From: Acidovorax sp. Leaf191
Lineage (GTDB): Bacteria; Pseudomonadota; Gammaproteobacteria; Burkholderiales; Burkholderiaceae_C
Assembly (NCBI RefSeq): GCF_001424425.1
Contig: NZ_LMPT01000019.1
Span: forward strand, 433,003 to 497,002
DNA length: 64,000 nt
Reading direction: 5' to 3'
The notes beneath the pieces are model-generated. The model saw nothing but the letters and a program-made list of their open reading frames with translations, was not told the DNA's origin and made no database searches. Of this stretch, positions 42,711-59,091 are shown piece by piece. Position numbers and translations under genes: made by a program. Positions within the stretch are counted from its first letter, which is position 1, and every line of letters starts with the position of its first letter.

Positions 42711-42728
42711 GGCGCGGTCGATTCAATT

Positions 42729-42785
42729 GCTATAAAAACAATAGCTTCTAGCGCTTGACTATCAAGCGGTAGGGCCTTTTTTATA
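42729..42785. repeat. Dispersed double-hairpin intergenic repeat, copy B (terminator-like)
   Basis: GCTAT/ATAGC (42729-42733 with 42741-42745), then CGCTTGA-CTA-TCAAGCG (42752-42768), then GGTAGGGCC and a run of six T. The layout matches copy A at 338-393. Placed 18 bp after the exonuclease stop, the second hairpin plus T-run could terminate transcription. Confidence 0.85.
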
Positions 42786-42856
42786 TCAAATCCGCTGCCT
42801 GAATCGCTCGCGGCGTCACCTACTGGTGCAGCGTGGTGTGGTGTGTGCCGCGCCCA

Positions 42857-44986
<2,130 letters not shown>

Positions 44987-45019
44987 CTAGAAATATTTTC
45001 TAGAACTTTATTCTAGAAT
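44987..45019. promoter_or_regulatory. Clustered CTAGAA palindromes, probable TetR operator for fadH/tetR
   Basis: CTAGAAA-TAT-TTTCTAG (44987-45003) is a perfect 7 bp inverted repeat; ATTCTAGAAT (45010-45019) is a second palindrome, and TTCTAGAA also occurs at 44998-45005. The cluster fills the 47 bp between the fadH and tetR start codons, so a bound repressor would block both promoters. Confidence 0.75.
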
Positions 45020-45027
45020 TACATGCC

Positions 45028-45660
45028 ATGGCAAGCCGCACTTCCCCCAACCCGCCCGCCCCTCCGACCGAAGCCACCGCAGACCGCCGCCAGGACATCC
45101 TGAACGCCGCCCTCGCCTGCGCGGCCGAAGGCGGCGTGGACGCCGTCACCATCGACGGCGTGCGGGCCCGCTGCGGGGCCAGCGTGGGCAGCATTTATCA
45201 CCACTTCGGCAACCGCGACGGCATCGTGGCGGCGCTGTTCTTCGACATCTTTCACGACCAGTCGCGCAGCGTGCAGGCGCAGCTCGATGCCTCGCGCGGC
45301 GTGGAAGCTGGCGTGCGCGCCCTGGTCACCGGGTACCTCGACTGGGTGGTGGCGCAGCCCGAGCGGGCGCGCTTCTTGTTCCAGGCCCGGGGCGCCGTGG
45401 CGGCGGGCCCGCGCTCGCCCGACCTGGCCGAGGCGGCCCGCCGCCGCAACCAGGCGCTGGTGGCCTGGTTCGAGCCGCAGCGCCGCGCCGGTGCGGTGCT
45501 GGACTTGCCGTGCGAGCTGATGCCCTCGCTGGTGATGGGGCCGGTGCAGAGCTATTGCCGGGCCTGGCTCTCGGACCGCGCCGGGCCGGGCACGCTGCCG
45601 TCGCCCGAAACCTACCGCAGCGAGCTGGCCGCGGCAGCGTGGCGCTCGGTCAAGGCGTGA
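45028..45660 (+). CDS. TetR-family transcriptional regulator
   Basis: A 210-residue repressor. The N-terminal HTH (about 20-65) reads RRQDILNAALACAAEGGVDA then VTIDGVRARCGASVGSIYHH, followed by F(G)NRDGIV, the standard TetR pattern. The remaining helices form a ligand domain. Divergence from fadH suggests it responds to an acyl-CoA or fatty-acid signal, as other fatty-acid TetR regulators do; that is inference. ATG 45028 directly follows the operator-like cluster. Confidence 0.9.
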   Translation: MASRTSPNPPAPPTEATADRRQDILNAALACAAEGGVDAVTIDGVRARCGASVGSIYHHFGNRDGIVAALFFDIFHDQSRSVQAQLDASRGVEAGVRALVTGYLDWVVAQPERARFLFQARGAVAAGPRSPDLAEAARRRNQALVAWFEPQRRAGAVLDLPCELMPSLVMGPVQSYCRAWLSDRAGPGTLPSPETYRSELAAAAWRSVKA

Positions 45661-45693
45661 CAGCGCGGCCCTCGCGGCTGTTGCGACTGCCGG

Positions 45694-46095
45694 TCAGCCC
45701 GCTGCGCCCGCCTTGCGGCGCCAGGCCCAATGCACAGCCCCGGCCAGCAATGCTCCCGCCGGGCCGATGATGACAAGGTTCCACAGCGGCATGAACAGCA
45801 GGCCGAGCGCGGCGGTGGAGCCCGCCGGGGCCACGAAGACGCTGTAGTGCATGTACAGGTCTGCCACCAGGCACGCGGCAGCCGCCCCCAGGGCCCACGC
45901 CGCCCAGCGGCCCCGTGCCAGCCAGGCAGAGATGGCGTACGGCGCGCACGAGAAGACCCACAGGCCGATGAGAAATGCGCTGGCACCCGCGCCCTCCTCG
46001 CCGCCCGCTGCCTTGAACACTACCGTGTAGAGGTGCAGCGCGGCGCCTGCGCCGCACAGGGCCAGGGCCGATTGGGTGAGCGTGGAGGATGGCAT
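45694..46095 (-). CDS. Small integral membrane protein of unknown function
   Basis: A 133-residue protein with about four predicted TM helices (LALCGAGAALHLYTVVFKAA; FLIGLWVFSCAPYAISAWLA; WALGAAAACLVADLYMHYSV; LLFMPLWNLVIIGPAGALLA) and a basic C-terminus. I do not recognise the family. ATG 46095 (MPSSTLTQSAL) is preferred; the upstream frame is Arg-rich and looks non-coding. It lies downstream of slyX on the same strand after a 52 bp gap and converges on the TetR gene. Confidence 0.7.
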   Translation of the reverse strand: MPSSTLTQSALALCGAGAALHLYTVVFKAAGGEEGAGASAFLIGLWVFSCAPYAISAWLARGRWAAWALGAAAACLVADLYMHYSVFVAPAGSTAALGLLFMPLWNLVIIGPAGALLAGAVHWAWRRKAGAAG

Positions 46096-46147
46096 GGGCA
46101 GCCTTTCGACGCGGAGCGCGGTGTACGGCGGGGTGGGCCTTTTATCG

Positions 46148-46390
46148 TCAATAGTGCGGCGGCAGCTCGTCGCGCGGGTTGCGCGGCGCCGCGGCGCCAC
46201 CGCCCTCCGGCGCTTGCTGGCGCAGCTGGATCACCTCGCGCGCCAGCCGGTCGATCAGCTCTTGCTGGCGGTAGATGGTCATGTTGAGCTGGTCCAGCAG
46301 GTCTTCGGTGAAGCTGGCCTTGATCTCCAGGCTCTCCAGCCGCTCGATGATTCGCCGCTGCTCAGGACTGGGCTCAGAGGTAGATTCCAT
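46148..46390 (-). CDS. slyX: SlyX family coiled-coil protein
   Basis: An 80-residue protein: RIIERLESLEIKASFTEDLL, then DQLNMTIYRQQELIDRLARE and the terminal DELPPHY, which is the SlyX signature ending. It is almost entirely coiled coil. SlyX function is unknown; in enterobacteria it is encoded beside slyD. ATG 46390 (MESTSEPSPEQ) is chosen; the open frame continues upstream into a dispersed repeat and is not coding there. Confidence 0.92.
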   Translation of the reverse strand: MESTSEPSPEQRRIIERLESLEIKASFTEDLLDQLNMTIYRQQELIDRLAREVIQLRQQAPEGGGAAAPRNPRDELPPHY

Positions 46391-46448
46391 AGGTTTCCAA
46401 TACAACCGTGAACTTATTGGTGGGCACTGCCCTGCCAGCAACCGCCGC

Positions 46449-46541
46449 GCAAGGGCCGCCCCGCCGCGCTGGCGGTGTCCCCCTTCCCGAATTGCAAAGC
46501 AATTCGAGAGAAGGGGGAAGGCGCGAAGCGACTCAGGGGGT
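46449..46541 (-). repeat. 93 bp dispersed palindromic repeat, copy 1 (overlaps a stop codon)
   Basis: It contains the hairpin CGAATTGC-AAA-GCAATTCG (46488-46506) inside an outer stem CCCCCTTC (46479-46486) and GAAGGGGG (46510-46517). It aligns over its whole length with 56246-56337. The element edge supplies the last codons and TGA of the aminotransferase gene (ACCCCCTGA on the minus strand). Confidence 0.9.
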
Positions 46542-47732
46542 TGTCACTGCTTGCCCCAGGCGGGCGACGCCTTCGCGGATCTTCTCCACATCGGCGGTCG
46601 CGAACGACAGGCGCAGCGTGGCGTGGTCGGGGTTGGCGCAGAAGAACGGCGTGCCGGGCACGAAGGCCACGCCCTTTTCGATGGCGCGCTTGGCCAGCAC
46701 ATTGCCGTCGGCCACCTTGCCGCCCGCGCCGGTCAGGCGCGCCCACACGAACAGGCCGCCCTGGGGCTGCACGAACTCGATGGCGTCGCCCAGGTCCTTG
46801 CGCAGCGCATCGCCCATGGCCTGAGCACGCTCGGCGTACACCTTGCGCACGTTGGCCAGCGTGGCAGGCATGCGGCCGGCCTTGAGGTACTGGGCGGCCG
46901 TGGCCTGGGCGAAGGTGCTGGTGTGCGCATCGCTGAACTGCTTGCACATGGTGGCTTTGGCCAGCAGCTCGGCCGGGGCGATCATCCAGCCCACGCGCAG
47001 GCCGGGCGACAGCACCTTGCTCAAACTGCCGCAGTGCACCAGCAGCTCGCGGCTGCCGGGCACGCTGGCCGACAGGTTGAGCAGGCTGGGGGGTGGCGCG
47101 TCGCCAAAATACAGGTCGCCGTAGGGGTCGTCCTCGACGATCAGGGTGTTGTGCTTCACGGCCATCTCCAGCACGGCCTTGCGGCGCTCGGCGCTCAGCA
47201 TCACGCCGCTGGGGTTGCCGAAGGTGGGGATGAGGTAGACGAACTTGGGCTTGTGCTCGGCGATCAGCTTTTCCAGCTCGTCGGTCTTCACGCCGTTGGC
47301 GTCGATGGGTGCGCTGATGAGTTCGGCGCCGTACAGGCGAAAGCACTGGATGGTGGCCAGGAAGGTCGGGCCTTCCACGATGACCTTGTCGCCGGGGCTG
47401 ATGAGCGTCTTGCCCAGCAGGTCCAGCGCCTGCTGGCTGCCGGTGGTGACGATGAGGTTGTCGGCCGCGACCGCCGTGGCACCCTTGGATGCCATGAAGG
47501 CGGCCAGTTGCTCGCGCAGCGGGTTGTAGCCCTCGGTGGCGCCGTACTGCAGCGCGGCGCCGGGTTCTTCGGCCAGCGCGGCGTTGCTGGCAGCGCGGAT
47601 GCCATCCACGTCGAACATCGCGCTGTCCGGGAAGCCACCCGCAAAGCTGATGATGCCGGGCTTGCCCAGCAGCTTGAAAAGCTCGCGGATGGCGGAGGTT
47701 TCTACATTGTTCAGGCGGTCGGCGAATTGCAT
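46533..47732 (-). CDS. PLP-dependent class I/II aminotransferase (2-aminoadipate transaminase-like)
   Basis: A 399-residue fold-type I aminotransferase. The early segment SFAGGFPDSAMFDVDGI and LQYGATEGYNPLREQLAAFM are typical of the LysN/2-aminoadipate and valine-pyruvate aminotransferase group. GSQQALDLLGKTLISPGD, the NPSG region (PTFGNPSGVML) and the PLP-lysine segment GSLSKVLSPGLRVGWM are intact. A MocR-type HTH is absent, so it is an enzyme, not a regulator. The last codons and stop come from the edge of a dispersed repeat. Substrate specificity cannot be set from sequence alone. Confidence 0.9.
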   Translation of the reverse strand: MQFADRLNNVETSAIRELFKLLGKPGIISFAGGFPDSAMFDVDGIRAASNAALAEEPGAALQYGATEGYNPLREQLAAFMASKGATAVAADNLIVTTGSQQALDLLGKTLISPGDKVIVEGPTFLATIQCFRLYGAELISAPIDANGVKTDELEKLIAEHKPKFVYLIPTFGNPSGVMLSAERRKAVLEMAVKHNTLIVEDDPYGDLYFGDAPPPSLLNLSASVPGSRELLVHCGSLSKVLSPGLRVGWMIAPAELLAKATMCKQFSDAHTSTFAQATAAQYLKAGRMPATLANVRKVYAERAQAMGDALRKDLGDAIEFVQPQGGLFVWARLTGAGGKVADGNVLAKRAIEKGVAFVPGTPFFCANPDHATLRLSFATADVEKIREGVARLGQAVTTP

Positions 47733-47864
47733 GGCGTCAACAAGGTGGGTGGCGAAGAATCTGCCATTGTCGCCAATTGCCGAGCAGGTTTCCTGCGACG
47801 GGCAAGGTGTTTACGATGCAAGGCGCCGCGTTGTCGGCCATCACCCGACTGAAAGACCTGCCCC

Positions 47865-48341
47865 ATGCCCCTCGAAATCCGCCAATTGCCCCGCATGCGC
47901 CTGGCCTACATGCGCCAGACCGGCCCCTACGGCCCGTCGCTCACGCACCTGTGGGACCGCTTTGGCCGGTGGTGCCAGGCCCATGGCCTGGCCGAGCCGC
48001 GCCCCAAGTACTACGGGATCAGCCTGGACAACCCCGCCTGCACCCCGCCCGAGCAGTGCCGCTACGACGCCTGCGTGCAGGTGGGCGTGGGCTTGCGCAC
48101 GGGCACCGAGGCGATGGTGCAGGACTTTGCGGGCGGCGACTACGCCTGCCTGCAGTTCGTGGGCACCGGGCCCGAGATCGGCGCGGCCTGGGCGGGCATG
48201 ATGGCGCCGGGGCAGATCCCCGCGGGCTGGGAGGTGGCCGCGCGGCCCGCCGTCGAGGTGTATGACGAGCACTTTGCCGTCAACCCCGCCACCGGTGCGT
48301 TTCCGTGCTGGCTGTGTCTGGCGGTGCAGCGCACGGCCTGA
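47865..48341 (+). CDS. GyrI-like small-molecule-binding domain protein
   Basis: A 158-residue stand-alone GyrI-like/AraC effector-binding domain: EIRQLPRMRLAYMRQTGPYG, then WDRFGRWCQAHGL, PKYYGISLDNP and the C-terminal PAVEVYDEHFAVNPATGAFP. In this family the fold binds small molecules or acts as a gyrase inhibitor or hydrolase; no DNA-binding domain is present. It is divergent from the aminotransferase (132 bp gap) and ends 24 bp from the convergent Bug receptor. Confidence 0.87.
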   Translation: MPLEIRQLPRMRLAYMRQTGPYGPSLTHLWDRFGRWCQAHGLAEPRPKYYGISLDNPACTPPEQCRYDACVQVGVGLRTGTEAMVQDFAGGDYACLQFVGTGPEIGAAWAGMMAPGQIPAGWEVAARPAVEVYDEHFAVNPATGAFPCWLCLAVQRTA

Positions 48342-48365
48342 GCGCCCCCCGCATCGCCTTCTTGA

Positions 48366-49352
48366 TCAATCGACGCGGATGTCCGCCCGCGCCGCCACGG
48401 CGCGCATCAGCGGCAGTTCGCGCTCGATGCGGGCGCGCAGCGCGTCGCCGTTGCCCCAGGCCGGGGTCATGCCGATGTCCACCAGCTTCTTCTTGAATTC
48501 GGCGGACGCCATGGTGTCCGCCAGGGCCTTCTCCAGCTTTTTCTGCACCGGTGCGGGCAGGCCGGCGGGCGCGACGAACGCGAACCACGAGCCCATGTCG
48601 AAGCCCGGGTAGCCGCTCTCGGCCACCGTGGGCACGTTGGGCAGCAATGCCAGGCGCTGCGGGCTCAGCACGGCGATGGGCTTGATCTTGCCGGCCTTGA
48701 TGAGCGGTGTGGAGGCCACCACCGTGTCCACCGCCAGCTGCACCTGCCCGCCCATCAGCGCAGTCAGGTTGGGCGAGCTGCCGTTGAAGGGCACGTGCAG
48801 CATCGGAAAGCCCGCGGTGGCCTTGAGCATCTCGGCGCCGAAGTGCACCGACGAGCCCGTGCCGTAGGACCCGTACGAGAACTTGTCCGGCGCGGCCTTG
48901 GCCTGCGCCACGATGTCCTTGAGCGTGCTGCCCTGCACATCGTTGTGGGCCACCAGCAGCAGCCCCATGTCGGCCACCAGGCCGATGGGCGTGAAGCTGC
49001 GCACCGGGTCGTACGGCAGGTTGGTGCGGATGGCGGGGTTCATGGTGAGCGTGGTGTTGGCGCCCAGCAGCAGGGTGTAGCCGTCGGCCGGTGCCTTGGC
49101 CACCAGCGACGCAGCCACCACCGTGCCCGCGCCCGGCCTGTTTTCGACCACCATCGGCTGGCCCAGCCGCTCGCCCATCGCCGTGGCCAGCAGGCGCCCC
49201 AGGATGTCCGTGGCGCCGCCTGGCGCGAACGGGACGACCAGCTTCACGGGCCGGTCGGGATAGGTCTGCTGCGCCCAGGACACGGCGGGCGCCGCCAGCA
49301 CGAAGGCGCTGGCCAGGAGACACGATACGAAGCGGGAGCGCGGCAGGGACAT
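48366..49352 (-). CDS. Bug-family (TctC/TTT) periplasmic solute-binding receptor
   Basis: A 328-residue receptor. The signal peptide runs to SWAQQ near residue 28, followed by TYPDRPVKLVVPFAPGGATD, the family hallmark, and VVENRPGAGTVVAASLVAKA. VPFNGSSPNLTALMGGQVQL matches the ligand-binding region. It is the third such receptor in the window and lies 83 bp downstream of the amidase on the same strand, so it may import that enzyme's amide substrate or product; this is inference. ATG 49352 starts the signal peptide. Confidence 0.9.
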   Translation of the reverse strand: MSLPRSRFVSCLLASAFVLAAPAVSWAQQTYPDRPVKLVVPFAPGGATDILGRLLATAMGERLGQPMVVENRPGAGTVVAASLVAKAPADGYTLLLGANTTLTMNPAIRTNLPYDPVRSFTPIGLVADMGLLLVAHNDVQGSTLKDIVAQAKAAPDKFSYGSYGTGSSVHFGAEMLKATAGFPMLHVPFNGSSPNLTALMGGQVQLAVDTVVASTPLIKAGKIKPIAVLSPQRLALLPNVPTVAESGYPGFDMGSWFAFVAPAGLPAPVQKKLEKALADTMASAEFKKKLVDIGMTPAWGNGDALRARIERELPLMRAVAARADIRVD

Positions 49353-49435
49353 GGTGGGTTCTCCGGTCAAAAAAGCGGCAAGGGCAGGATGGCGGTAAGG
49401 GCGGGATGGCGAAACGATGGAAAAAATAGCGCGCA

Positions 49436-50941
49436 TCAACCCAGCAACGGGCTCGGCACCCGGGCATGGCCGCTGGCCTGGTCGTACGCATGGCCGATCT
49501 GCAGCACGGCCGCATCGGACTGCGCCGGGCCGATGATCTGCAGCCCCGCCGGCAAGCCCCCGGACCCGAAGCCCGCAGGCGCAGCCAAGGCAGGCAGGCC
49601 GGCCATGGTGGCGGGCACCACGGCCTCCATCCAGCGGTGGTAGGTGTCCATGGTGCGCCCGCCGACCTCGTGCGGCCAGTCCAGGTCGGCATTGAACGGG
49701 AAGACTTGCGCGGCCGGCAGCACCAGAAAGTCGAACTGCTCGAACAGGCCGCGCAGCACCTGGTACCAGGCACTGCGCACACGGGCGGCGTCGTACACCT
49801 GCAGGGCCGACAGGCGCATGCCGCGCTCGATCTCCCACACCGCCTCGGCCTTGAGCAGTGCGTGCGTGGCCGGGTTGCGGTACAGGGCCGCGTTGGCCCC
49901 CGCCACGCTGAAGCTGCGCAGGTCGATCCAGGCGTTCCACAGCTGGGCCATGTCGAACGCAGGCACCACGGATTCCACCGCGCAGCCCACCGTGCGAAAG
50001 TGCGCGAGCGCCTGCTCGCAAGTGGCCAGCACGCCGGGCTCGGTGGGCAGGTGCCCGCCCAGGTCGCCCAGCCAGCCGATGCGTGCACCGCGGAAGTCGC
50101 GCTCCAGCGGCCGCCCCAGCAAGGCAATGTCCTCGTGCCGGCGGGTGAGCGGCAGCCGCGCATCGAAGCCCGCCTGCACCGACAGCAGCAGCGCCAGGTC
50201 CGGGATGTTGCGCGCCATGGGCCCGGTCACGCTGAACTGCTGGAAGAACACCTCTTCCGTCGGGCCGTGCGGCACCAGGCCGAACGAGGTGCGCAGCCCG
50301 TACACGTTGTTGAACGCCGCCGGCGTGCGCAGCGACCCCATCATGTCCGATCCGTCGGCCACCGGCAGCATGTGCAGCGCCACGGCCACCGCCGCCCCGC
50401 CGCTGCTGCCGCCCGCCGACACGCCCGGGTCGAACGCATTGCGCGTGGTGCCGTACACCGGGTTGTAGGTGTGCCCGCCCAGGCCGAACTCGGGCGAGTT
50501 GCTGCGGCCGATGAACAGTGCGCCGCCCGCGCGCATGCGCTCGAACACCACGGCGTCGGTGGTGGACACCTGCCCCGCAAAGATGGGTGAGCCGCGCGTG
50601 GTGACCATGCCGGCCGCGGGCATGATGTCCTTGGGTGCCTGCGGAAAGCCGTGCAGCGGACCCAGGCTCTCGCCGCGCGCCAGCTGCGCATCGCGCTCGG
50701 CGGCCTGCGTGCGCAGCGCGTCGCGGTCTGCCAGCGCCACGAGCGCATTGACCACGGGGTTCAGGCGGTCGACCTGGGCCAGGTAGGCGTCGAGCACCTC
50801 GGCGCACGACACATCGCGGGCGTGGATGGCGCGCGACAGGCTGGTGGCCGTGTGGCCGACGATGCCGCCCGGTGCCCTGCCCTGGGCAGGCTGCGCGGGT
50901 GTGGCCGATGTGGCTGTGCTGGAGGATTGTGTCATTTGCAA
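49436..50941 (-). CDS. Amidase signature family hydrolase
   Basis: A 501-residue amidase of the Ser-cisSer-Lys type. Catalytic Lys104 lies in APKDI, the cis-Ser in AGGSSGGAAVAVAL (Ser179/Ser180), and the nucleophile Ser203 in GSDMMGSLRTPAAFN. Length and order of motifs are normal; there is no signal peptide, so it is cytosolic. Relatives hydrolyse short amides or form glutamyl-tRNA amidotransferase subunit A, but no gatB/gatC is adjacent. The Bug receptor follows on the same strand and a LysR gene is divergent (90 bp gap), a typical catabolic unit. Confidence 0.9.
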   Translation of the reverse strand: MQMTQSSSTATSATPAQPAQGRAPGGIVGHTATSLSRAIHARDVSCAEVLDAYLAQVDRLNPVVNALVALADRDALRTQAAERDAQLARGESLGPLHGFPQAPKDIMPAAGMVTTRGSPIFAGQVSTTDAVVFERMRAGGALFIGRSNSPEFGLGGHTYNPVYGTTRNAFDPGVSAGGSSGGAAVAVALHMLPVADGSDMMGSLRTPAAFNNVYGLRTSFGLVPHGPTEEVFFQQFSVTGPMARNIPDLALLLSVQAGFDARLPLTRRHEDIALLGRPLERDFRGARIGWLGDLGGHLPTEPGVLATCEQALAHFRTVGCAVESVVPAFDMAQLWNAWIDLRSFSVAGANAALYRNPATHALLKAEAVWEIERGMRLSALQVYDAARVRSAWYQVLRGLFEQFDFLVLPAAQVFPFNADLDWPHEVGGRTMDTYHRWMEAVVPATMAGLPALAAPAGFGSGGLPAGLQIIGPAQSDAAVLQIGHAYDQASGHARVPSPLLG

Positions 50942-51031
50942 GTCAGCATAAGCAGCGCCTTGCGTTTCGACAATCGACGATTTCTGAGGTTATCGTTGCG
51001 TTTTATGCAACCCACACCCCAAGGCGGCCCC

Positions 51032-51994
51032 ATGCTTTCGACCCGGCTTCAGGACACGGCACTGCGCTACTTTCTGGAGGTCGTGCGCAGCGGCTCGGTC
51101 AGCGAGGCCGCCACGCGCCTGAACGTGTCGCCCTCGGCCGTCAGCCGGCAGGTGGCCGCGCTCGAAGACCTGCTATCCGTGCCGCTGTTCGAGCGGCGCC
51201 CGCGCGGCATGGCGCCCAGCGCCGCCGGCGAGCTGCTGGCGGCCTACGCCCGGCGCGGCGCGCTGGAGGCGGACCGTGTGGTGTCAGACATTGCGGCGCT
51301 GCAGGGCCTGCACACCGGGCTGGTGCGCGTGTGCAGCTCGGCCGGCTTTGCCATCGAATTCCTGCCCCGGGTGATGGCGCAGTTCCGCACGCAATACCCC
51401 GGCATCCAGTTCCACCTGCGGGTGGTCAGCCCCGCGGCCGTGACCACCGCCGTGCTCAACGGCGATGCCGACATCGGCCTGACCTACAGCCGCTCGGCCG
51501 AGCGCGACATCACCGTGCAGCACCGGCAGGCATCCCCCGTCATCGCCATCATGCGCAAGGACCACACGCTCGCGCGCTTCGCGTCGGTCACGCTGGCGCA
51601 GATGCATGGCTACCCCATCGCCCTGCCCGAGCGCGACAACACCGTGCGCCAGCTGTTCGACATCGGCTGCAGCCAGCGCGGCCTGGTGTTCGAGCCCGCG
51701 CTGGTGTGCAACCACTTCGAGACCCTGATGCACTTCGTGCTGCACGGCGGGGGGCTGTCGATCTCGGGCGAGGTCACAGTGCGCGACCGCGTGCAGCGCG
51801 GCGAGCTGCACGCCGCACAGATCCGCGAGCCCGGCATGGGCGCGCGCCATACCGAACTGCAGACCCTGCACGGCCGCACCCTGCCGGCCGCCGTGCGCAT
51901 GTTCCTGGAATTCCTGCGCGGCCAGCTGCGGGACAATGCAGCGGCACCACCCGTGCCTTCCAGAAAAAAGACATCCCCACCCAAGTCCAGATGA
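51032..51994 (+). CDS. LysR-family transcriptional regulator
   Basis: A 320-residue regulator. The HTH is in TALRYFLEVVRSGSVSEAAT then RLNVSPSAVSRQVAALEDLL, followed by the effector-binding fold. ATG 51032 (MLSTRLQDTAL) is preferred because AAGGCGG lies about 7 nt upstream; ATG 51005 is in frame nine codons earlier without a good ribosome site. It is divergent from the amidase and is the likely regulator of the amidase-receptor unit. Its stop overlaps the nth start as ATGA. Confidence 0.88.
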   Translation: MLSTRLQDTALRYFLEVVRSGSVSEAATRLNVSPSAVSRQVAALEDLLSVPLFERRPRGMAPSAAGELLAAYARRGALEADRVVSDIAALQGLHTGLVRVCSSAGFAIEFLPRVMAQFRTQYPGIQFHLRVVSPAAVTTAVLNGDADIGLTYSRSAERDITVQHRQASPVIAIMRKDHTLARFASVTLAQMHGYPIALPERDNTVRQLFDIGCSQRGLVFEPALVCNHFETLMHFVLHGGGLSISGEVTVRDRVQRGELHAAQIREPGMGARHTELQTLHGRTLPAAVRMFLEFLRGQLRDNAAAPPVPSRKKTSPPKSR

Positions 51995-52629
51995 AGACCT
52001 CCGACATCGAGCCCTTCTTCGCCACCCTCAAGGCGGCGAACCCCATGCCCAACACGGAGCTGGAGTACACCACCCCGTTCGAACTGCTGGCCGCCGTGCT
52101 GCTATCGGCCCAGGCCACCGACGTGGGCGTGAACAAGGCCACGCGCAAGCTGTTTCCGGTGGCGGGCACGCCCCAGGCCATCTGGGACCTGGGGTTGGAG
52201 GGCCTGGAGGGCTACATCAAGACCATCGGCCTATACAAGAGCAAGGCCCGCCATCTGCTGCAGACCTGCCAGATCCTGGTGGAGCAGCACGGCGGCCAGG
52301 TCCCCCGCACCCGCGAAGCCCTGGAGGCCCTGCCCGGCGTGGGCCGCAAGACGGCCAACGTGGTGCTCAACGTGGCGTTCGGTCAACCGACCATGGCGGT
52401 GGACACCCACATCTTCCGCGTGAGCAACCGCACCGGCCTGGCCCCGGGCAAAAACCCGCTGGCCGTGGAGCTGCAGCTGATGAAGCGCGTGCCCGATGCA
52501 TACGCCGTGGACTCGCACCACTGGCTCATCCTGCACGGCCGCTACGTGTGCCAGGCGCGCAAGCCGCACTGCTGGGAGTGCGTGGTGGCACGGTATTGCG
52601 ATTTCGAGCCGAAGGTAATGGCGCCTTGA
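51991..52629 (+). CDS. nth: Endonuclease III (DNA glycosylase/AP lyase)
   Basis: A 212-residue base-excision repair enzyme that removes oxidised pyrimidines and nicks AP sites. The helix-hairpin-helix LPGVGRKTANVVLNVAFGQP carries the catalytic Lys, the catalytic Asp is in VDTHIFRVSNR, and the 4Fe-4S ligands follow C-x6-C-x2-C-x5-C in CQARKPHCWECVVARYC. Start and stop codons of nth and the upstream LysR gene overlap as ATGA at 51991-51994. A dispersed repeat begins 15 bp after its stop. Confidence 0.97.
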   Translation: MKTSDIEPFFATLKAANPMPNTELEYTTPFELLAAVLLSAQATDVGVNKATRKLFPVAGTPQAIWDLGLEGLEGYIKTIGLYKSKARHLLQTCQILVEQHGGQVPRTREALEALPGVGRKTANVVLNVAFGQPTMAVDTHIFRVSNRTGLAPGKNPLAVELQLMKRVPDAYAVDSHHWLILHGRYVCQARKPHCWECVVARYCDFEPKVMAP

Positions 52630-52644
52630 ACCATAGGGCCCGCC

Positions 52645-52700
52645 GCTACAGATTCGATAGCTACTGGCACTTACCAGTCAAGCGGTAGAGGCCAAAAACT
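52645..52700. repeat. Dispersed double-hairpin intergenic repeat, copy C (diverged)
   Basis: GCTAC followed by GATAGC (52645-52661) and ACTTACCAGTCAAGCGGTAG then AGGCC keep the layout and the 3' CAAGCGGTAG block of copies A and B, but the second hairpin is imperfect. It fills the gap between nth and the convergent racemase-like gene. Confidence 0.7.
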
Positions 52701-52733
52701 CTTGAAGCCCCGGCGCGCAAGCACCGAACATGG

Positions 52734-53483
52734 TCAAGCCGCCGCAGCCAATGCCGCCATGTCCGCCGAGACTCCGCTCCACGCGACATCGAACCCCGCC
52801 ACCCGCCGCTCCGGCGGCACCGGGTGCACCCGCAGTGCCCAGGTCGCGCCCGCCACCACGCTGTCGATCACCGGTACGCCCACTTGCGGCTGCACGGCGG
52901 CGGCCATGCCGGCCAGGCCTGCACCGCCCAGGATGACGGCCTGCACACCCATCTGGCGCACCACGTCGCGGCAGGCCTGGGCCAGCAGGGCGCGGGCGGC
53001 GTCCGGGTCGGCGGCCAGTTGGGCACCCGTGGGCGCAACAGTGTGGATGCCTGCCAGCCCGTGCGCATGCCCCAGGGCCTGCGCCAGGCGCTGCAGCATG
53101 GGGCCCCAGCGCTCGCCACCGGTGACGATGGCAAAGCGGCCGTGGCGGGCGGCTTCGATGAAGGACGCTTCGGCCAGGCCGGTCACGGGCACGGGGCTGC
53201 TTTCACGCAGCGCCATCAGGCCCGGGTCGCCGAAGCAGCCGATCAGCACGGCATCGGGCGGCTGCTGCCTGCCCTGTGGCTGGGCCAGGTCATGGGCCCA
53301 GGCGTCGAGCGCGGCGTGCGCGGCCACGGCGTAGCTGGCCTCGCAGGCGATGTAGGGCGCACCGAAACGCGCCGTGGCGGTGCGCACCGCCACGTGCGAG
53401 CCCGCAGCGGCCTGCACGTGGTGCTGCAGCAGCGCGCTCACGCCGGCAGAGGTGTTGGGATTGATGACCAGCAGTTGGCGCAC
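52734..53483 (-). CDS. Asp/Glu/hydantoin racemase-family protein lacking the second catalytic Cys
   Basis: A 249-residue protein that starts RQLLVINPNTSAGVSALLQH, the classic hydantoin-racemase opening. Cys83 in LIGCFGDPGL is the first catalytic position, but the second, normally LGCAGM, reads LGGAGLAG (Gly187). Two-base racemisation therefore looks impossible, and another reaction or a decarboxylase-like role is open. It is the last gene of a minus-strand set with a GntR regulator and a spermidine/putrescine-type ABC importer, which suggests breakdown of a nitrogen compound such as a hydantoin or ureide. Start ATG 53483. Confidence 0.8.
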   Translation of the reverse strand: MRQLLVINPNTSAGVSALLQHHVQAAAGSHVAVRTATARFGAPYIACEASYAVAAHAALDAWAHDLAQPQGRQQPPDAVLIGCFGDPGLMALRESSPVPVTGLAEASFIEAARHGRFAIVTGGERWGPMLQRLAQALGHAHGLAGIHTVAPTGAQLAADPDAARALLAQACRDVVRQMGVQAVILGGAGLAGMAAAVQPQVGVPVIDSVVAGATWALRVHPVPPERRVAGFDVAWSGVSADMAALAAAA

Positions 53484-53519
53484 GGTGTGGAGAAGGTCGT
53501 GGAAGGCGGGTCCATGCGC

Positions 53520-54347
53520 TCAGGCCGCCCGGCCCAGCAGCAGGCCGATGAGGTCGGGCGCATCGCTGGCGGGCGGCGTGAACTCCAACTGGGACTCGAT
53601 GCGTTTCAAATGGTCCAGCATCAGCCGCGCCGCCTCGCGCGCGTCGCGCAGGCGGATGGCGTCGATCAGCGCGCGGTGCTCACGGCAGCCGCAGGCGGTG
53701 GCCTCCTCGCGCTCGCGGGCATGGCTCGGGCTGTAGGTCATGAGGATGAGCGAAGTGCGCGAGACCAGTTCGCGCAGGATGCGCCCCAGCGTCTGGTGGC
53801 CCGCGGCCTGGGCGATGTGCAGGTGAAAGTCGCCCGACAGGCGGATGGCCCGGCGCATGTCGCCACCGGCGCGCGCAGCCTCTTCGTCGTCGATGCAGGT
53901 GCGCAGCGCGGCGATGTCGGCGTCGGTGGCGTTGGCGATGAAAAGCTCTACCAGGCGCGGCTCCAGCAGGCGGCGGACCTCGAACACCTCGAGCGCCTCT
54001 TGCGGTGTCGGCTGGGCGATGGACGCGCCCCGGTTGGGCGTGAGCGTGACCACCTGCTCGTTGGCCAGCCGCACCAGCAGCGGCCGCACGCGCGTGCGCG
54101 ACACGCCGAAGGCCGCTGCCAGCTTGTCTTCGACCAGCTTGGTGCCGGGCGGCAGGCGGTGGTCCAGGATGGCCGACACCATGCGGTCGTACATGTCGTT
54201 GTCGCTCAGTTGGCCCGGGACGTCGGCCATGGGCGACGGAACAGGCGCCGGGACGGTCGACTGAACGGGCGATTCAGCGGGCGCGGAGGCGGGGACAGAA
54301 GCGGCAGCCTGGGCTGCGCGCCGGGGTTTCTTGGCAGTCGTGGTCAT
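53520..54347 (-). CDS. GntR-family regulator of the FadR/FCD subgroup
   Basis: A 275-residue regulator. The first 45 residues are Ala/Pro/Ser-rich and basic. The winged HTH covers about 50-115 (LSDNDMYDRMVSAILDHRLP then PGTKLVEDKLAAAFGVSRTR). The helical FCD domain contains FEVRRLLEPRLVELFIANAT and metal-ligand candidates in SGDFHLHIAQAAGHQTLG and CREHRALIDAIRLRD. It lies 13 bp after the ABC permease gene, within the operon, and probably controls it. A TTGTACACAA-type inverted repeat upstream of the first ABC gene is the best operator candidate. Confidence 0.9.
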   Translation of the reverse strand: MTTTAKKPRRAAQAAASVPASAPAESPVQSTVPAPVPSPMADVPGQLSDNDMYDRMVSAILDHRLPPGTKLVEDKLAAAFGVSRTRVRPLLVRLANEQVVTLTPNRGASIAQPTPQEALEVFEVRRLLEPRLVELFIANATDADIAALRTCIDDEEAARAGGDMRRAIRLSGDFHLHIAQAAGHQTLGRILRELVSRTSLILMTYSPSHAREREEATACGCREHRALIDAIRLRDAREAARLMLDHLKRIESQLEFTPPASDAPDLIGLLLGRAA

Positions 54348-54360
54348 AGATGTGCCGTTT

Positions 54361-55254
54361 TTACCCCGAACGGCCCTTGCGCCCGCGGCCCAATGCCCAC
54401 ACCAGGGCGAGCGTGATGCCCATCACCACGAACGACACCACCGTGGTCAGGGTGCCCAGCGCGTAGATCGACGGCGTGGTGACCGTGCTGGTCAGGCCCT
54501 GCAGTTCCAGCGGCAGCGTGTTCACATCACCGATGGCCTGCGAGGTGCGGGCGATCTCGTCCCAGCTGAGCGTGAAGCCGAACATGCCGATGCCCACGAC
54601 CGAGGGCGCGATCAGCGGCAGCACCACATGGGCAAAGCCCTGCCAGGGCGTGGCGCCCAGGTCGCGCGCGGCCTCTTCGTACGCCGGGTTGAAGCGGTTG
54701 AACACCGCGAACATGATCAGCAGGCCGAACGGCAGCGTCCAGGTCAGGTGCGCGCCCAGGGCCGAGGTGAACAGGCCGAGCGACGTGCCGTAGCCCTCGA
54801 GCGCGCTCTCCATGCCCAGCCATTCGAGCGCGGCCTTGATGCCGTTGTCGATGAGCCGGAACTCCAGGCCTATGCCCAGCGACACGATGATGGACGGCAT
54901 GATCAGGCTGGCCACGACGATGAAGAACAGCGTATTGCCGCCCGCCAGCCGCTTGCGAAAGGCCAGGCCCGCCAGCACCGACAGCACCACCGTGCACAGC
55001 ATCACCGCCACACCCAGGCCCAGCGAGCGCCACAGCGCCGCGCCGATATCCACCACGCCCAGGCCTTCGGCCAGCTTGTGGAACCAGTGCAGCGACACGC
55101 CGCGCATGGGAAAGGTCAGCCCGCCTTCGGGGCCCTGGAAGCTCAGGATGAAGATGACGAACATGGGCCCGTACATGAACAGCACGAACAGGCTGAACAC
55201 GATGGCCAGCAGCCAGAAGCTGGCGGGGCGGGATTCGCGGATGCGGTTTGCCAT
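54361..55254 (-). CDS. ABC transporter permease, PotC-like
   Basis: A 297-residue inner-membrane permease with about six TM helices and the EAA loop EAARDLGATPWQGFAHVVLP that contacts the ATPase. PotC-type spermidine/putrescine permeases show the same opening (ASFWLLAIVFSLFVLFMYGP). The ATG at 55254 overlaps the last base of the upstream permease stop (TGATG), and GTG 55257 is an alternative. It is second of the permease pair and forms the importer with genes at 55254, 56345 and 57724. The ligand may be a polyamine or another small cation or nitrogen compound. Confidence 0.9.
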   Translation of the reverse strand: MANRIRESRPASFWLLAIVFSLFVLFMYGPMFVIFILSFQGPEGGLTFPMRGVSLHWFHKLAEGLGVVDIGAALWRSLGLGVAVMLCTVVLSVLAGLAFRKRLAGGNTLFFIVVASLIMPSIIVSLGIGLEFRLIDNGIKAALEWLGMESALEGYGTSLGLFTSALGAHLTWTLPFGLLIMFAVFNRFNPAYEEAARDLGATPWQGFAHVVLPLIAPSVVGIGMFGFTLSWDEIARTSQAIGDVNTLPLELQGLTSTVTTPSIYALGTLTTVVSFVVMGITLALVWALGRGRKGRSG

Positions 55255-56168
55255 CACAGTTCCTTACGGATGTCCACGAGGCGCGTGAGGCCCCAGATGA
55301 TCATGAGCACCACCGCGAGCAGGATCACGGCATTGGCCGCCGCCAGTGGGAACTGCAGGTACGACGTCTGCACCTGGATGATCTTGCCGATGGAGGCGAT
55401 CTGCTGGCCGCCCATCACGCCGATGGTGACGAAGTCGCCCATGACGATGGTGATCACGAAGATGGACCCGATGATGATGCCGGTGCGCGACAGCGGCACG
55501 ATCACGTTCCACAGCGTCTGCCAGCCGCTGGCCCCGCTGTCGCTGGCGGCCTCGATGAGGCTGCGGTCGATGCGCATCATGCTGTTGAAGATGGGCACGA
55601 TCATGAACATGGTGTACAGGTGCACGAAGGCCAGCACCACCGAGAAGTCCGAGAACAGCAGCCATTCGACGGGCTGATCGACCAGCCCCGCCCCCACCAG
55701 GGTCTGGTTCACCAGCCCATTGCGCCCCAGCAGCGGCACCCACGAGATCATGCGGATCACGTTCGACGTCCAGAACGGAATGGTGCACAGCACGAACAGC
55801 AGCGTCTGCATGCCTGACGAGCGCACATGAAAGGCCAGGAAATAGGCCACCGTGAAGCCGATCACCAGCGTGATCAGCCACACCAGAAAACTGAACTTGA
55901 GCGTGGACCAGTACGTCTTGAGCGTGACGCACAGGCCGTCTGACGCATCGCCACAGCCCGCAAAGATCGACACGTAGTTCTTGAACGTGAAGCCGGGCAG
56001 CAATTCGTACTCGTTGAAGTCCCAGAAGCTGACCATCACGATCAGCGCGAGCGGCACCAGGAAGAACAGCACGAACACCAGCGTGAACGGCGCGGCCTGC
56101 CACCAGGCGGCAATGCCGCGCCCGGGAGTGGCAGCTGCAGGCATGGTCGGAGTGTGGGTAGTGCTCAT
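55254..56168 (-). CDS. ABC transporter permease, PotB-like
   Basis: A 304-residue permease with six TM helices. It opens with a cytoplasmic stretch and AAPFTLVFVLFFLVPLALIV, and carries the EAA-like loop EAASDSGASGWQTLWNVIVP. A periplasmic loop after TM1 has two Cys (AGCGDASDGLCVTLKTYW) that could form a disulfide. It is followed without a gap by the PotC-like permease. Upstream, 177 bp separate it from the binding-protein gene, and that gap holds a 92 bp dispersed repeat. Confidence 0.9.
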   Translation of the reverse strand: MSTTHTPTMPAAATPGRGIAAWWQAAPFTLVFVLFFLVPLALIVMVSFWDFNEYELLPGFTFKNYVSIFAGCGDASDGLCVTLKTYWSTLKFSFLVWLITLVIGFTVAYFLAFHVRSSGMQTLLFVLCTIPFWTSNVIRMISWVPLLGRNGLVNQTLVGAGLVDQPVEWLLFSDFSVVLAFVHLYTMFMIVPIFNSMMRIDRSLIEAASDSGASGWQTLWNVIVPLSRTGIIIGSIFVITIVMGDFVTIGVMGGQQIASIGKIIQVQTSYLQFPLAAANAVILLAVVLMIIWGLTRLVDIRKEL

Positions 56169-56245
56169 GGTGTTTTCAAATCAAATATCCATCGCATCGG
56201 GCAACGGTCGCCGAAACTGGCGCTGCCAGAGGCCAGTGCCCCCGT

Positions 56246-56337
56246 GCAAGGGCCGCCCCGCCGCACCGGGGGCGTCCCCCTCCCGAACCGCGCAGCGGTT
56301 CGAGAGAGGGGTGAAGGCGCGCAGCGCCTCAGGGGGT
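56246..56337 (-). repeat. 92 bp dispersed palindromic repeat, copy 2 (inside the ABC operon)
   Basis: The hairpin CGAACCGC-GCA-GCGGTTCG (56284-56302) sits in an outer stem CCCCTC (56277-56282) and GAGGGG (56306-56311). It aligns with copy 1 at 46449-46541 in the same orientation, also just 3' of a minus-strand gene. Stem differences from copy 1 are compensatory. It separates the binding-protein gene from the permeases. Confidence 0.9.
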
Positions 56338-56344
56338 GAAACCT

Positions 56345-57652
56345 CTACGCCGCGACGAATTCATTCCACTTCTGAACCATATAGTTGTTCTCGTCCATCA
56401 GCGCGTTCCAGCAGGCGATGCCACCCATGCGCGACTCATAGCTGCCGCCGTCGCGCACCGCGCCGGTCTTGGCCAGCACGTCGCCATTGGGGCTCTTGAT
56501 GTCCTGCGTGGCGGGCTTGCCTTCCATCCAGTAGGCCCACTCGTAGGCTTCCATCTTGGACTTGGCGGTTTCCAGCACGGCGCTGTAGTAGCCCTGGCGG
56601 TTCAGGTACGCGCCGGCCCAGCCGTCCAGGAACCAGTTGATGAACTCGTACGCGCCGTCGAGCTTGCGGCCGCTCAATGTGGCCGGCAGGCCGAAGCCGG
56701 CGGCCCAGGCGCGGTAGCCTTCCTTGAGCGGCTGGAAGTTGCAGGCGATGCCCTTGGTGCGCACGGCGGTGACGGCCGGGCTCCACATCGACTGGATCAC
56801 CACCTCGCCCGATGCCATCAGGTTGACCGACTCGTTGAAGTCCTTCCACAGCGCGCGGAACTGGCCCTGCTTCTTGGCTTCGATCAGGGTCTTGATCGTG
56901 AGGTCGATCTCCTTCTTGGTCATGTTGCCCTTGTCGGGGTACTTGTAGATGCCCATGGCCTCGACCACCATGGCGGCGTCCATGATGCCGATCGAAGGAA
57001 TGTTCAGGATCGCGGTCTTGCCCTTGAACTCGGGGTTCAGAAGCTCGGCCCAGGAGCTGATGGGGCGCTTGATCAAATCGGGGCGGATGCCCAGCGTGTC
57101 GGCGTTGTACACGGTGGGGATCAGCGACATGAACTGCGTGGGCGCGGTTGCGAATTTCTTAGACTTTTCGCCTTCCAGATAGATCACCTTCTTGGGCGCC
57201 GTGCCCTGGTCGCCCACGGCCTTGCCGGCCACCATGCCGGTGGTGAACAGCGTGGTGATCTTGTCGGCGTTCTTGATGCGCTTGGTGTCGATGCCCTTCA
57301 AGTTGCCCGTGGGCACGATCTTTTTCAGCGAGAAGTACTCGGTGTCGATCAGGTCGAAACTGTTGGGCGCGGTCACGGCGCGCTTGGTCACGTCGTCCGT
57401 GGTCACGGCCACGTACTGGATCTCGATGCCGGTGTCGGCCTTGAACTTCTCGGCAATCGCCTTGTCCTGGTTCACCGCCGTGCCCAGGTAGCGCAGCACG
57501 ATCTTTTCCTGCGAATGGACGGCCGGGAACACGCCAGCGGCCAGGATGCCCGCCGTGCCCTTGAGCAGCGAGCGGCGCTGCATGCCGCCGGTGGTGTCGG
57601 AGGCGGCGGCAGCAACAACAGCGGGGGAATCAGCACGAGAGTCGTCGGACAT
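56345..57652 (-). CDS. ABC transporter periplasmic binding protein, PotD-like
   Basis: A 435-residue binding protein with a Tat-type signal (MQRRSLLKGTAGILAAGVFP, after a 23-residue leader). The mature protein is of the PotD/PotF group (IVLRYLGTAVNQDKAIAEKF; YNADTLGIRPDLIKRPISSW; QSMWSPAVTAVRTKGIACNF). It lies 71 bp after the ATPase gene and 8 bp before the dispersed repeat. Twin-arginine export is not typical for E. coli PotD but is common in this family branch. Ligand unknown. Confidence 0.9.
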   Translation of the reverse strand: MSDDSRADSPAVVAAAASDTTGGMQRRSLLKGTAGILAAGVFPAVHSQEKIVLRYLGTAVNQDKAIAEKFKADTGIEIQYVAVTTDDVTKRAVTAPNSFDLIDTEYFSLKKIVPTGNLKGIDTKRIKNADKITTLFTTGMVAGKAVGDQGTAPKKVIYLEGEKSKKFATAPTQFMSLIPTVYNADTLGIRPDLIKRPISSWAELLNPEFKGKTAILNIPSIGIMDAAMVVEAMGIYKYPDKGNMTKKEIDLTIKTLIEAKKQGQFRALWKDFNESVNLMASGEVVIQSMWSPAVTAVRTKGIACNFQPLKEGYRAWAAGFGLPATLSGRKLDGAYEFINWFLDGWAGAYLNRQGYYSAVLETAKSKMEAYEWAYWMEGKPATQDIKSPNGDVLAKTGAVRDGGSYESRMGGIACWNALMDENNYMVQKWNEFVAA

Positions 57653-57723
57653 GGGAAAGCTCCTTGGTTGGCGAAGTGGCAGGGGGTTGGAAACGAGAGG
57701 ACGAACGATCAAACGAAAAAGGG

Positions 57724-58830
57724 TCAGGCCGGCACGGCCTGCGCAGTGGCCGCAGCAGCAGCAGCAGGCGCGGATACCGGCACCGTGCGGGGCGACAGCG
57801 GGTGGGCCTGCTCCGGCGTCCAGTGCAGCTGCACGCCCTGGCCCACCGCATACGGCTGGGTGGCAAAGGCGGCCTCGGACACCATCACCGAATACGCCGC
57901 CGTGGCGTTGGCCGACAGGGCCACGCCCTGCTTTTGCAGGCCCAGCAGCACATAGGTGCCCTGGTACTCCACGTCGGTCACCACGGCCTGCATGCGCTGG
58001 GCGCCCCAGGGCAGCTCGGCACTGGCAGGGGCGATCTGCAGGTGGTCGGTGCGCACGCCGACCTTGCCGTCCAGCGTATCGATCACGTTGTGGCCGCCCA
58101 TGAAGCGCGCCACGAACTCGCTGGCCGGGCGGTTGTAGACCTCGTGCGGGCTGCCCACCTGCTCGATCACGCCGTGGTTCATCACCACCATGGTGTCGGC
58201 CAGGGCCATGGCCTCTTCCTGCGAATGGGTCACGTGGATGAAGGTCAGGCCCAGCTCCTTTTGCCAGCGGCGCAGCTCGGCGCGCATCTGGATGCGCAGG
58301 AAAGGGTCCAGCGCGGAAAGCGGTTCGTCCAGCAGCAGCACGCGCGGCTGGGTGATGAGCGCGCGCGCCAGCGCCACGCGCTGCTGCTGCCCGCCCGACA
58401 GCTCGGCCGGCTTGCGATCGGCCAGGTGGCCCATGGCCACGCGCTCGAGCAGGTCGCGCGCCTTGGCCTGCCGCTCGGCCCGGGCCACGCCCTTCATCTT
58501 CAAACTGAAGGCCACGTTGTCCAGCGCCGACAGGTGCGGGAACAGCGCAAAGCTCTGGAACATCATGGCCGTGCCGCGCGCCGCGGCGGGCAGGTCGGTG
58601 ATGTTGCGGTTCTCCAGCAGGATGTCGCCGCTGGTGACCGACTCGTGCCCGGCGATCATGCGCAGCGTGGTGCTTTTGCCGCAGCCCGAGGGGCCCAGCA
58701 GGCAGCAATAGCTGCCGCTCGCAATGCGCAGGTTGATCGCATCCACCGCGGGTTTGCCGTGGGCATACCGCTTGGTGAGTGCGACGATTTCGATGGCGGC
58801 CGGGGCCTTGGCAGGGGCTGGGACTTGCAT
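57724..58830 (-). CDS. ABC transporter ATPase, PotA-like
   Basis: A 368-residue ATPase. Walker A is GPSGCGKST at 46-54, the signature is LSGGQQQRVALARAL, Walker B is RVLLLDEPLSALD, and the switch His lies in THSQEEAMALADTMVVM. A C-terminal TOBE domain follows (about 280-350). It is first in the minus-strand operon ATPase, binding protein, two permeases, GntR regulator, racemase-like protein. ATG 58830 gives MQVPAPAKAPAAIEIVALTK. An inverted repeat lies just upstream at 58859-58895. Confidence 0.93.
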   Translation of the reverse strand: MQVPAPAKAPAAIEIVALTKRYAHGKPAVDAINLRIASGSYCCLLGPSGCGKSTTLRMIAGHESVTSGDILLENRNITDLPAAARGTAMMFQSFALFPHLSALDNVAFSLKMKGVARAERQAKARDLLERVAMGHLADRKPAELSGGQQQRVALARALITQPRVLLLDEPLSALDPFLRIQMRAELRRWQKELGLTFIHVTHSQEEAMALADTMVVMNHGVIEQVGSPHEVYNRPASEFVARFMGGHNVIDTLDGKVGVRTDHLQIAPASAELPWGAQRMQAVVTDVEYQGTYVLLGLQKQGVALSANATAAYSVMVSEAAFATQPYAVGQGVQLHWTPEQAHPLSPRTVPVSAPAAAAAATAQAVPA

Positions 58831-58858
58831 GCACTGACTATTGCAAGCGCCGTGCCAG

Positions 58859-58895
58859 TTTTGTACACAATCTTTTATTCACTTTGAGTACAAAA
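58859..58895. promoter_or_regulatory. Inverted repeat upstream of the ABC operon, probable GntR/FCD operator
   Basis: TTTTGTAC (58859-58866) and GTACAAAA (58888-58895) are perfect inverted copies 21 bp apart, and TTGTACACAA (58861-58870) is itself nearly palindromic. FCD-type GntR regulators often bind TTGT-N2-ACAA-type sites. It lies 29 bp upstream of the ATPase start. Confidence 0.55.
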
Positions 58896-59091
58896 TGCAC
58901 CAGCATCGTGCGCACAGCGCACCAGTTGCACGAACCGCCGGCACCTCGCCCGCACGGTGCAGCCTTTTATTGGTGCGAAAACGTTTGCGCGGCGCGCCTT
59001 GCTGGTGAGCCGCTTGGCGCATGGCTATACTGAAACCGAGGCAGACACAAATACTTACCTTTACAAGAGGCGCCACCTCCCCCCACGCCGG

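Follow-up and report, generated by a model that had tools for sequence, protein, structure and literature searches.

A structured repeat lying directly behind stop codons in Acidovorax: anatomy, turnover and a candidate role at transcript 3′ ends

Two copies in the window and the anatomy of the element

The window, a 64,000-nt stretch of the genome of Acidovorax sp. Leaf191, carries two minus-strand copies of a palindromic element (Table 1). Copy 1 opens with CCCCCTGAG at 46540 and overlaps the end of a class I/II aminotransferase gene that is 99% identical to its counterparts in Acidovorax sp. sic0104 and Leaf78; the small protein encoded downstream is presumably SlyX-like. Copy 2, which starts with the same CCCCCTGAG at 56336, lies between two genes, one for an ABC permease and one for the extracellular solute-binding protein of an ABC importer; the start codon of the latter is uncertain and could instead be at 57643. 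The first-pass annotation had recognized both copies (46449–46541 and 56246–56337) and had placed them in one orientation 3′ of minus-strand genes, as they are, but it drew their low-side ends too short: the conserved unit reaches ~46429 and ~56216, the extension consisting of helix 3 and then a CTGGC...GCCAG hairpin, and in copy 1 a degenerate terminal hairpin may run out to ~46420. Re-reading of the sequence also bore out the stem difference described between the copies (CGAATTGC/GCAATTCG versus CGAACCGC/GCGGTTCG) and the A–T pair missing from both outer-stem arms of one copy.

Both copies were recovered by a covariance model built without them (R1; E = 4e-7 and 3e-6, the next match in the window having E = 0.2) and by one built with both (R2; E = 3e-21 and 1e-20). 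RNA folding z scores on the gene strand are −3.4 for copy 1 and −2.8 for copy 2, and those on the opposite strand are nearly as strong (−3.1 and −2.6). No Rfam family matched the 64-kb window at its gathering score; around copy 1 there are three Rfam matches far under their cut-offs, with E up to 5. A different dispersed repeat, TTGCTATA...ATAGCT...GCTTG...CAAGCGGTAG, occurs in the window at 336–404 and 42727–42795; in a stretch of the related genome G185, 14 of 21 repeats of this kind lie between convergent genes, and the available text of PMC5217627 lists motif pairs from Acidovorax ebreus and Polaromonas to which we link it.

Table 1. Coordinates of the two copies, their helices and neighboring genes in the window, and of one gene elsewhere in the host genome
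Feature	Position	Strand	Remarks
Copy 1, conserved unit	46429..46540	-	5′ end at 46540
TGA within element start CCCCCTGAG, stop codon of aminotransferase gene	46533..46535	-	
Copy 1, helix 1	46520..46532	-	second pair (T against C) unformed
Copy 1, helix 2	46479..46517	-	CCCCCTTCTCTCGAATTGC / GCAATTCGGGAAGGGGG; the inner and outer stem of the first-pass annotation
Copy 1, helix 3	46441..46476	-	ACCGCC...GGCGGT, inner GCGC/GCGC
Class I/II aminotransferase gene, upstream of copy 1	46533..47732	-	
Small-protein gene, downstream of copy 1	46148..46390	-	NCBIfam PRK04325, score below cut-off
Copy 2, whole unit with terminal hairpin	56216..56336	-	
Copy 2, helix 1	56316..56328	-	GGCGC/GCGCC
Copy 2, helix 2	56276..56310	-	CCCTCTCTCGAACCGC / GCGGTTCGGGAGGGGG
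Copy 2, helix 3	56238..56273	-	GCCCCC...GGGGGC with GTGC/GCAC
Copy 2, terminal hairpin	56216..56237	-	ACTGGC...GCCAGT, then two T only
ABC-importer extracellular solute-binding protein gene, upstream of copy 2	56345..57583	-	ends 8 nt before element
ABC permease gene, downstream of copy 2	55254..56168	-	best NCBIfam match PotB, below cut-off
REP-associated tyrosine transposase-like gene (PF01797), single	L096, G000 C12:260704-260985		

The host genome (5.87 Mb in 24 contigs) contains 99 exact matches to the 19-base start of the element, CCCCCTGAGNCGCNNCGCG (51 forward, 48 reverse), and none to the reversed pattern used as a control. A covariance model of class A (defined below) found at least 147 genomic matches at E up to 0.01; this count comes from scoring 150 of 10,233 candidates, and its rows include neither window copy. 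Within the family, 27 of 150 genomes contain the exact 19-mer; it is most frequent in the two Acidovorax genomes of that set (99 and 69), followed by G128 (38) and G147 (29). Among genomes reached via named records it is present in 16 of 24, with 95 matches in sic0104, 103 in Leaf78, 29 in A. delafieldii, 76 in A. facilis, 25 in A. temperans and 18 in P. citrulli DSM 17060; there are none in three Hydrogenophaga, two Curvibacter and two Limnohabitans genomes.

The unit is ~85–130 bases long and has three to four helices, ordered in the copy alignment as leader CCCCCTGA, helix 1, helix 2, GAC, helix 3 and hairpin. Helix 1 has the consensus G N CGC, a three-base loop and GCG N C; helix 2 is formed by CCCCC and GGGGG around an optional stem module (TCTCTCG nnnnGC TGC GCnnnn CGGGA kind); and the unit ends with an (A/G)CTGGC...GCCAGT hairpin with few T, past which no conservation was seen in the alignment. 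Helix 3 distinguishes class A (54 of 99 copies; GCCACC GGTGG CCTGGC AAA GCCAG TTCCAC GGTGGC kind, ~75–85 bp through helix 3) from class B (32 of 99; GCCCCC AGTGC GGCGGGGCGGCCCTT GCAC GGGGGC kind), and 13 of the 99 belong to neither. An extra module of the TCCAAGCCTGCGCAGGCAGGCTTGGA kind stands 3′ of helix 1 in variant copies of the host genome, namely L018, L023, L043, L047, L067, L069, L074 and L087, where the L087 module, TCCAATCC...GGATTGGA, has a matched change. Three head-to-tail units with steps of 83–85 bp form a tandem array at C2:54285-54528 of the host genome (L025 ~5686-5929), possibly a length-variable locus.

Covariation and placement behind stop codons

The paired substitutions that separate the window copies had been taken as strong evidence that a fold is kept; two copies alone are insufficient for this, and it is larger sets that bear it out. 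Three alignments were scored against a stated structure, each versus 500 shuffles, which ignore the relatedness of copies and whose counts are not probabilities. A1 holds 24 copies (23 distinct) from the orthologous binding protein–permease site of window copy 2; A2 comprises 20 of the host genome's 32 class B copies; A3 comprises 41 of 50 class A references, the other nine being set aside because they have an inner stem module; and the 13 copies that fit neither class are in no alignment. The covariation score exceeded that of all 500 shuffles in each set: 0.129 versus 0.081 in A1 (97.3% of cells paired, with two-sided changes in 6 pairs and 29 cells), 0.200 versus 0.077 in A2 (94.1% paired, 10 pairs and 48 cells) and 0.122 versus 0.056 in A3 (94.7% paired, 4 pairs and 54 cells). 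Pairing in A2 fell to 42–59% when the partner was slid by 1–3 columns. The terminal CTGGC...GCCAG hairpin is 100% paired in A1, and the second pair of helix 1 is often unpaired (13 of 20 copies in A2, 18 of 41 in A3). Pair types showed no excess over shuffles in A1 (500/500) or A3 (499/500), nor did the number of A3 pairs with two-sided change (361/500). Paired substitutions in other copies, the genome-wide check proposed in the first pass, are thus present in three sets, and conservation of the fold, rather than of the sequence, is supported. Wobble cells are mixed as to which molecule folds: G–T outnumber A–C by 61 to 4 in A1 (19 to 4 minus columns where G–T is the rule) and by 41 to 7 in A2 (8 to 7 after the same correction), and A3 has 6 versus 11, so that gene-strand RNA is favored in A1, hardly in A2 and not in A3.

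Placement of the element is non-random and bound to stop codons. When genes were called from codon usage, by a caller trained on Acidovorax stretches, 97 of the 99 host copies lay directly 3′ of a co-directional gene end, 95 of them within 15 nt and two at 20 and 29 nt. The median gap between stop codon and CCCCC is 5 nt; no copy falls within a gene, and the element's own TGA serves as stop codon for 5 of the 97 upstream genes. The exceptions are L054, opposed to both neighbors, and L068, between divergent genes. A 1.1-Mb stretch of one relative, G185, was used as a control for site choice: 2.4% of its strand-specific intergenic positions are no more than 14 nt from a stop, whereas all 9 exact pattern matches, and 14 of the 15 loose ones, fall within 15 nt 3′ of a co-directional stop, the fifteenth lying inside a called gene. 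The two covariance models together found 27 copies in that stretch, 25 of them so placed, one 82 nt 3′ of a stop and one behind an opposed gene, and a comparison repeat (TTGCTAT..ATAGC) has this placement in 6 of 21 cases. The enrichment at gene 3′ ends that the first pass had expected is thus found in both genomes. On two annotated plasmids the copy starts coincide with the ends of a thiolase gene (Comamonas odontotermitis) and a RidA-family gene (Diaphorobacter), and in both the gene after the copy is co-directional. The functions of the 97 upstream genes showed no clear enrichment over 97 random control genes and no dominating Pfam family; binding-protein matches (three NMT1, two TctC and two Peripla_BP_6) occur upstream and not in the control's best 25, a comparison that rests on the best 25 of 161 and 25 of 141 families.

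That the element is a terminator cassette, in which the CTGGC...GCCAG hairpin and following T end transcription and the remainder reinforces them, draws on the fully paired hairpin in A1, on a class consensus that ends in this hairpin and then T, and on the 23 of 99 copies that lie between convergent genes. Against it, 74 of 99 copies precede a co-directional gene, some within operons of needed genes, and the T-runs are short: of 77 of the 99 copies that have a hairpin by a loose pattern, some matches being the internal hairpin, 8 have four or more T and 35 have none. A terminator scan of 44000–60000 predicted 8 sites versus 6.4 expected and none on a copy, with one predicted terminator 9 nt past the end of copy 2 (56207–56189). 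We consider this account improbable. An intrinsic terminator in the strict sense, a GC-rich hairpin followed directly by a T run, was rejected, as T-runs are short or absent in most copies.

Gain, loss and exchange among relatives

At the aminotransferase site, a motif scan of 80 orthologous loci from named genomes (56 of them also read by eye) located the element in 2, and full-length matching placed it in 3 of 47 Acidovorax genomes, host included; in most other Acidovorax rows the next gene lies within ~10 nt of the stop codon. Judged from these comparisons, copy 1 is a gain at this site. G185 is 95% identical to the host at the aminotransferase gene, and its stretch holds an upstream match for 24 of the 99 host copies, several of them paralogs and 13 syntenic at ≥80% identity. 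Sites empty in this relative include the operon junctions infB–rbfA (18 nt between genes), response regulator–histidine kinase and aminotransferase–slyX-like, and another at which an etfB-like gene touches the next gene, which we take from its start to be etfA. Several empty sites (~1–18 nt between genes) have no structured replacement, which argues that the element is not needed there. No target duplication was seen by eye at the empty sites, where insertion ends are blurred by short indels. In L064 the element replaces the last codons of the gene.

The site between binding protein and permease is occupied in 24 of 30 genomes, with several tip sequences. The tip of copy 2, CGAACCGC/GCGGTTCG, is found in the host genome and three others, CGACCCGC/GCGGGTCG in five genomes including G185 and G085, CATATTGC/GCAATCTG in six (one minus a base), CGCATTGC/GCAATGCG in one and CGTCCCGC/GCGGGTCG in two, in addition to single variants; three genomes have a half-way tip, CGACCCGC/GCGGTTCG, with one pair broken. 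Mapping of tips on the gene tree, which has 30 rows and is poorly resolved, required 20 changes, where the minimum is 11 and shuffles average 22.1 (11 of 200 shuffles were as low). Tips are thus often exchanged or replaced, and part of the covariation may therefore reflect swapped ready-made stems rather than successive mutations. One tip type, present in 11 of the 47 genomes, occurs 18 times in G163, 6 in G166, 5 in G169, 4 in G192 and one or two times in each of seven more, with four of its low-count genomes having it at the orthologous site; this distribution points to a subfamily burst.

Three of the six element-free genomes carry a different inverted repeat at the binding-protein site: CTTCGACAGGCTCAG...CTGAGCTTGTCGAAG lies directly 3′ of the solute-binding protein gene in L257 and L258, and L234, from a genome 99% identical to the host over the queried gene part, has a variant with CTCCGACAGGCTCAG. 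By a measure that reads the first 110 nt only, 2.4% (L257) and 7.1% (L258) of ordinary gene ends are as stable as this repeat, and 22% are as stable as the L234 variant. In L241 and L244 one GC-rich hairpin replaces the element (4.8% of controls as stable), and L262 has nothing special at the site (30% of ordinary gene ends as structured). For element copies in L242, L247, L253 and L261 the figure is 15–23% of controls. That the binding-protein site always retains some fold is therefore only partly borne out.

Such turnover would fit a selfish hairpin repeat (REPIN- or MITE-like) of no benefit to genes, whose transposase reads the fold as single-stranded DNA and whose post-stop insertions alone survive: of the 13 syntenic sites 8 are empty in G185, 1 has a remnant and 4 are filled (sorted by eye; the differences may reflect gain or loss), the bursting tip type numbers 0–6 in the 46 genomes other than G163, and tips are scattered over the gene tree. 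The host has one REP-associated tyrosine transposase-like gene, whose family is matched in 44 of 47 Acidovorax genomes, in most of them once. The host gene, however, falls slightly short of the NCBIfam cut-off (75.3 versus 80), no element motif occurs in 1.5 kb either side of it (3.3 kb in all), and the element has no GTAG/CGTC tag. Furthermore, a spacing of 0–14 nt and a single orientation would hardly arise from selection alone where ~20% of the stretch is intergenic, and orthologous copies persist at one site across much of the genus. We regard a selfish repeat as rather unlikely. A REP transposase was also considered as the driver in its own right and set aside, since presence of the family in 44 of 47 genomes is undiscriminating and no element adjoins the host gene. 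One Acidovorax genome, G194, has 37 Y1 transposase family matches of mostly equal score, a recent burst that is perhaps of the IS200 type.

Candidate function and relation to known repeats

The reading that we prefer, at about an even chance, is that the element is a dispersing, non-coding, REP-like 3′-end RNA element that shapes decay of the upstream cistron or termination of its translation, with the mechanism inferred. In the transcript, helices 1 to 3 would act as a robust obstacle at the cistron end, blocking 3′-to-5′ exonucleases and perhaps also slowing ribosomes that terminate there; the upstream message would thereby be stabilized or tuned separately from the downstream one. An element between binding protein and permease would then raise the ratio of the former to the latter. 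The REP of malE in E. coli is a precedent for a raised binding protein-to-permease ratio, and window copy 2, by its location, fits it. Spread would be that of a non-autonomous repeat, by a route that places or tolerates copies almost only behind stop codons.

Placement, orientation and operon sites together call for an effect on the transcript, and full termination is unlikely given that operon sites such as infB–rbfA are empty in a relative. Stem-loops at 3′ ends block exonucleases and protect ends, according to the available text of PMC7509114, and REPs in E. coli lower translation only if they are less than 16 nt from a stop codon, as stated in the available part of PMC12306157 (citing its ref. 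17). Several observations count against an RNA element: the first helix starts ~8 nt into the unit, which puts its spacing from the stop codon close to the limit of the E. coli 15-nt zone; the opposite strand folds nearly as well and wobble counts are mixed; no Pfam family dominates upstream; and many orthologous sites are empty. The fold may possibly be kept only for the element's spread and not for the gene.

Two further readings were considered. The element could be a source of stable small RNAs derived from 3′ UTRs, as the ~80-nt BprJ1 transcript of Bordetella comes from a region holding a BRE (Beta-proteobacterial repeat element), a probable relative (available text of PMC3110155), although that relationship is only probable and such a fragment may be a mere decay remnant of a hard fold; we regard this as very improbable. 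More speculative than the preferred reading, and in our view unlikely, is a mobile RNA element aimed at stop codons, in which a process coupled to the end of transcription or translation would insert sense copies behind genes and the genus would continually re-tune cistron ratios in its operons by gain, loss and swap of one 3′-end fold.

Short palindromic repeats 3′ of genes have been known since the 1980s. Whether such repeats serve the gene or themselves is the question for which the Acidovorax element offers a clean test case: its orientation is nearly uniform, its spacing behind stop codons is fixed, one operon may be filled in one species and empty in a related one, and natural variants with matched stems are many.

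Beyond the family, a search of the order with a class A core pattern, whose spacing is wrong for the host genome (1 own match), gave matches in 4 of 250 genomes, 24 of them in G314. A similar element is present in G314 and G450, from another family of the order. The G314 unit, CCACCCCCGAAGCGC TGGC GCGCTTC CCCCTCAAGGGGG CGCGCC TGCGGACCGGCGGAGCCGGATCCGCGG CGC, has the same helix order and forms head-to-tail arrays with steps of 64–112 bp, full-length copies being 83 (L271) and 97 bp (L265) apart. By the gene caller trained on Acidovorax, 9 of 14 listed array starts in G314 lie 3–15 nt 3′ of a co-directional stop, and the one array start of G450 is not behind such a stop.

The tandem arrays in G314 and the host genome make BRE the likely known relative. 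BRE is GC-rich, 75–91 bp at full length, chromosomal, mostly intergenic and tandem in places; it is reported in Acidovorax, Delftia, Polaromonas, Rhodoferax and Bordetella, thus from Comamonadaceae to Alcaligenaceae, and its function was left unexplained in the parts of the description at hand (PMC3110155). The Acidovorax element shares a size of ~75–91 bp, a high GC content, intergenic location and tandem copies in places. It differs in that A. citrulli AAC00-1 is credited with 4 BRE copies, versus 18 exact 19-mers in P. citrulli DSM 17060, and in that no stop-codon rule, fold or covariation is reported for BRE in the same portion of the text (PMC3110155). Compared by description and not by BRE sequence, the two probably constitute one superfamily, in which case the element may supply BRE with a placement rule and a function.

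With the REP and BIME sequences of Enterobacteria the element shares palindromic structure, extragenic location at gene 3′ ends and between operon genes, a copy number of ~100 or more and an expected effect on mRNA ends and the end of translation. Its 85–130 bp and three to four helices, in contrast, exceed the 20–40 bp of a REP; it occurs in nearly a single orientation with 95 of 99 copies within 15 nt of a stop codon, whereas the available text of PMC12306157 gives 260/496 or 446/4,072 for E. coli REPs in the zone under 16 nt; and the alternating orientation of BIMEs is absent, as tandem copies are head to tail and 1 of 99 (L054) is opposed to both neighbors. The REPIN/RAYT systems, as described in the available text of PMC3116915 and PMC2817692, resemble it in their subfamily bursts and single REP-transposase-like gene per genome, but no copy of the element stands beside the transposase-like gene of the host and its link to stop codons is strict. 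The GTAG/CGTC-tagged repeats of PMC3733652, as far as its available text goes, are likewise small, palindromic and extragenic, but the Acidovorax element has no such tag. No description of this placement in Comamonadaceae was found in the available parts of the open-licence literature searched. The element probably belongs to, or varies little from, a kind of repeat that is already known and still unexplained.
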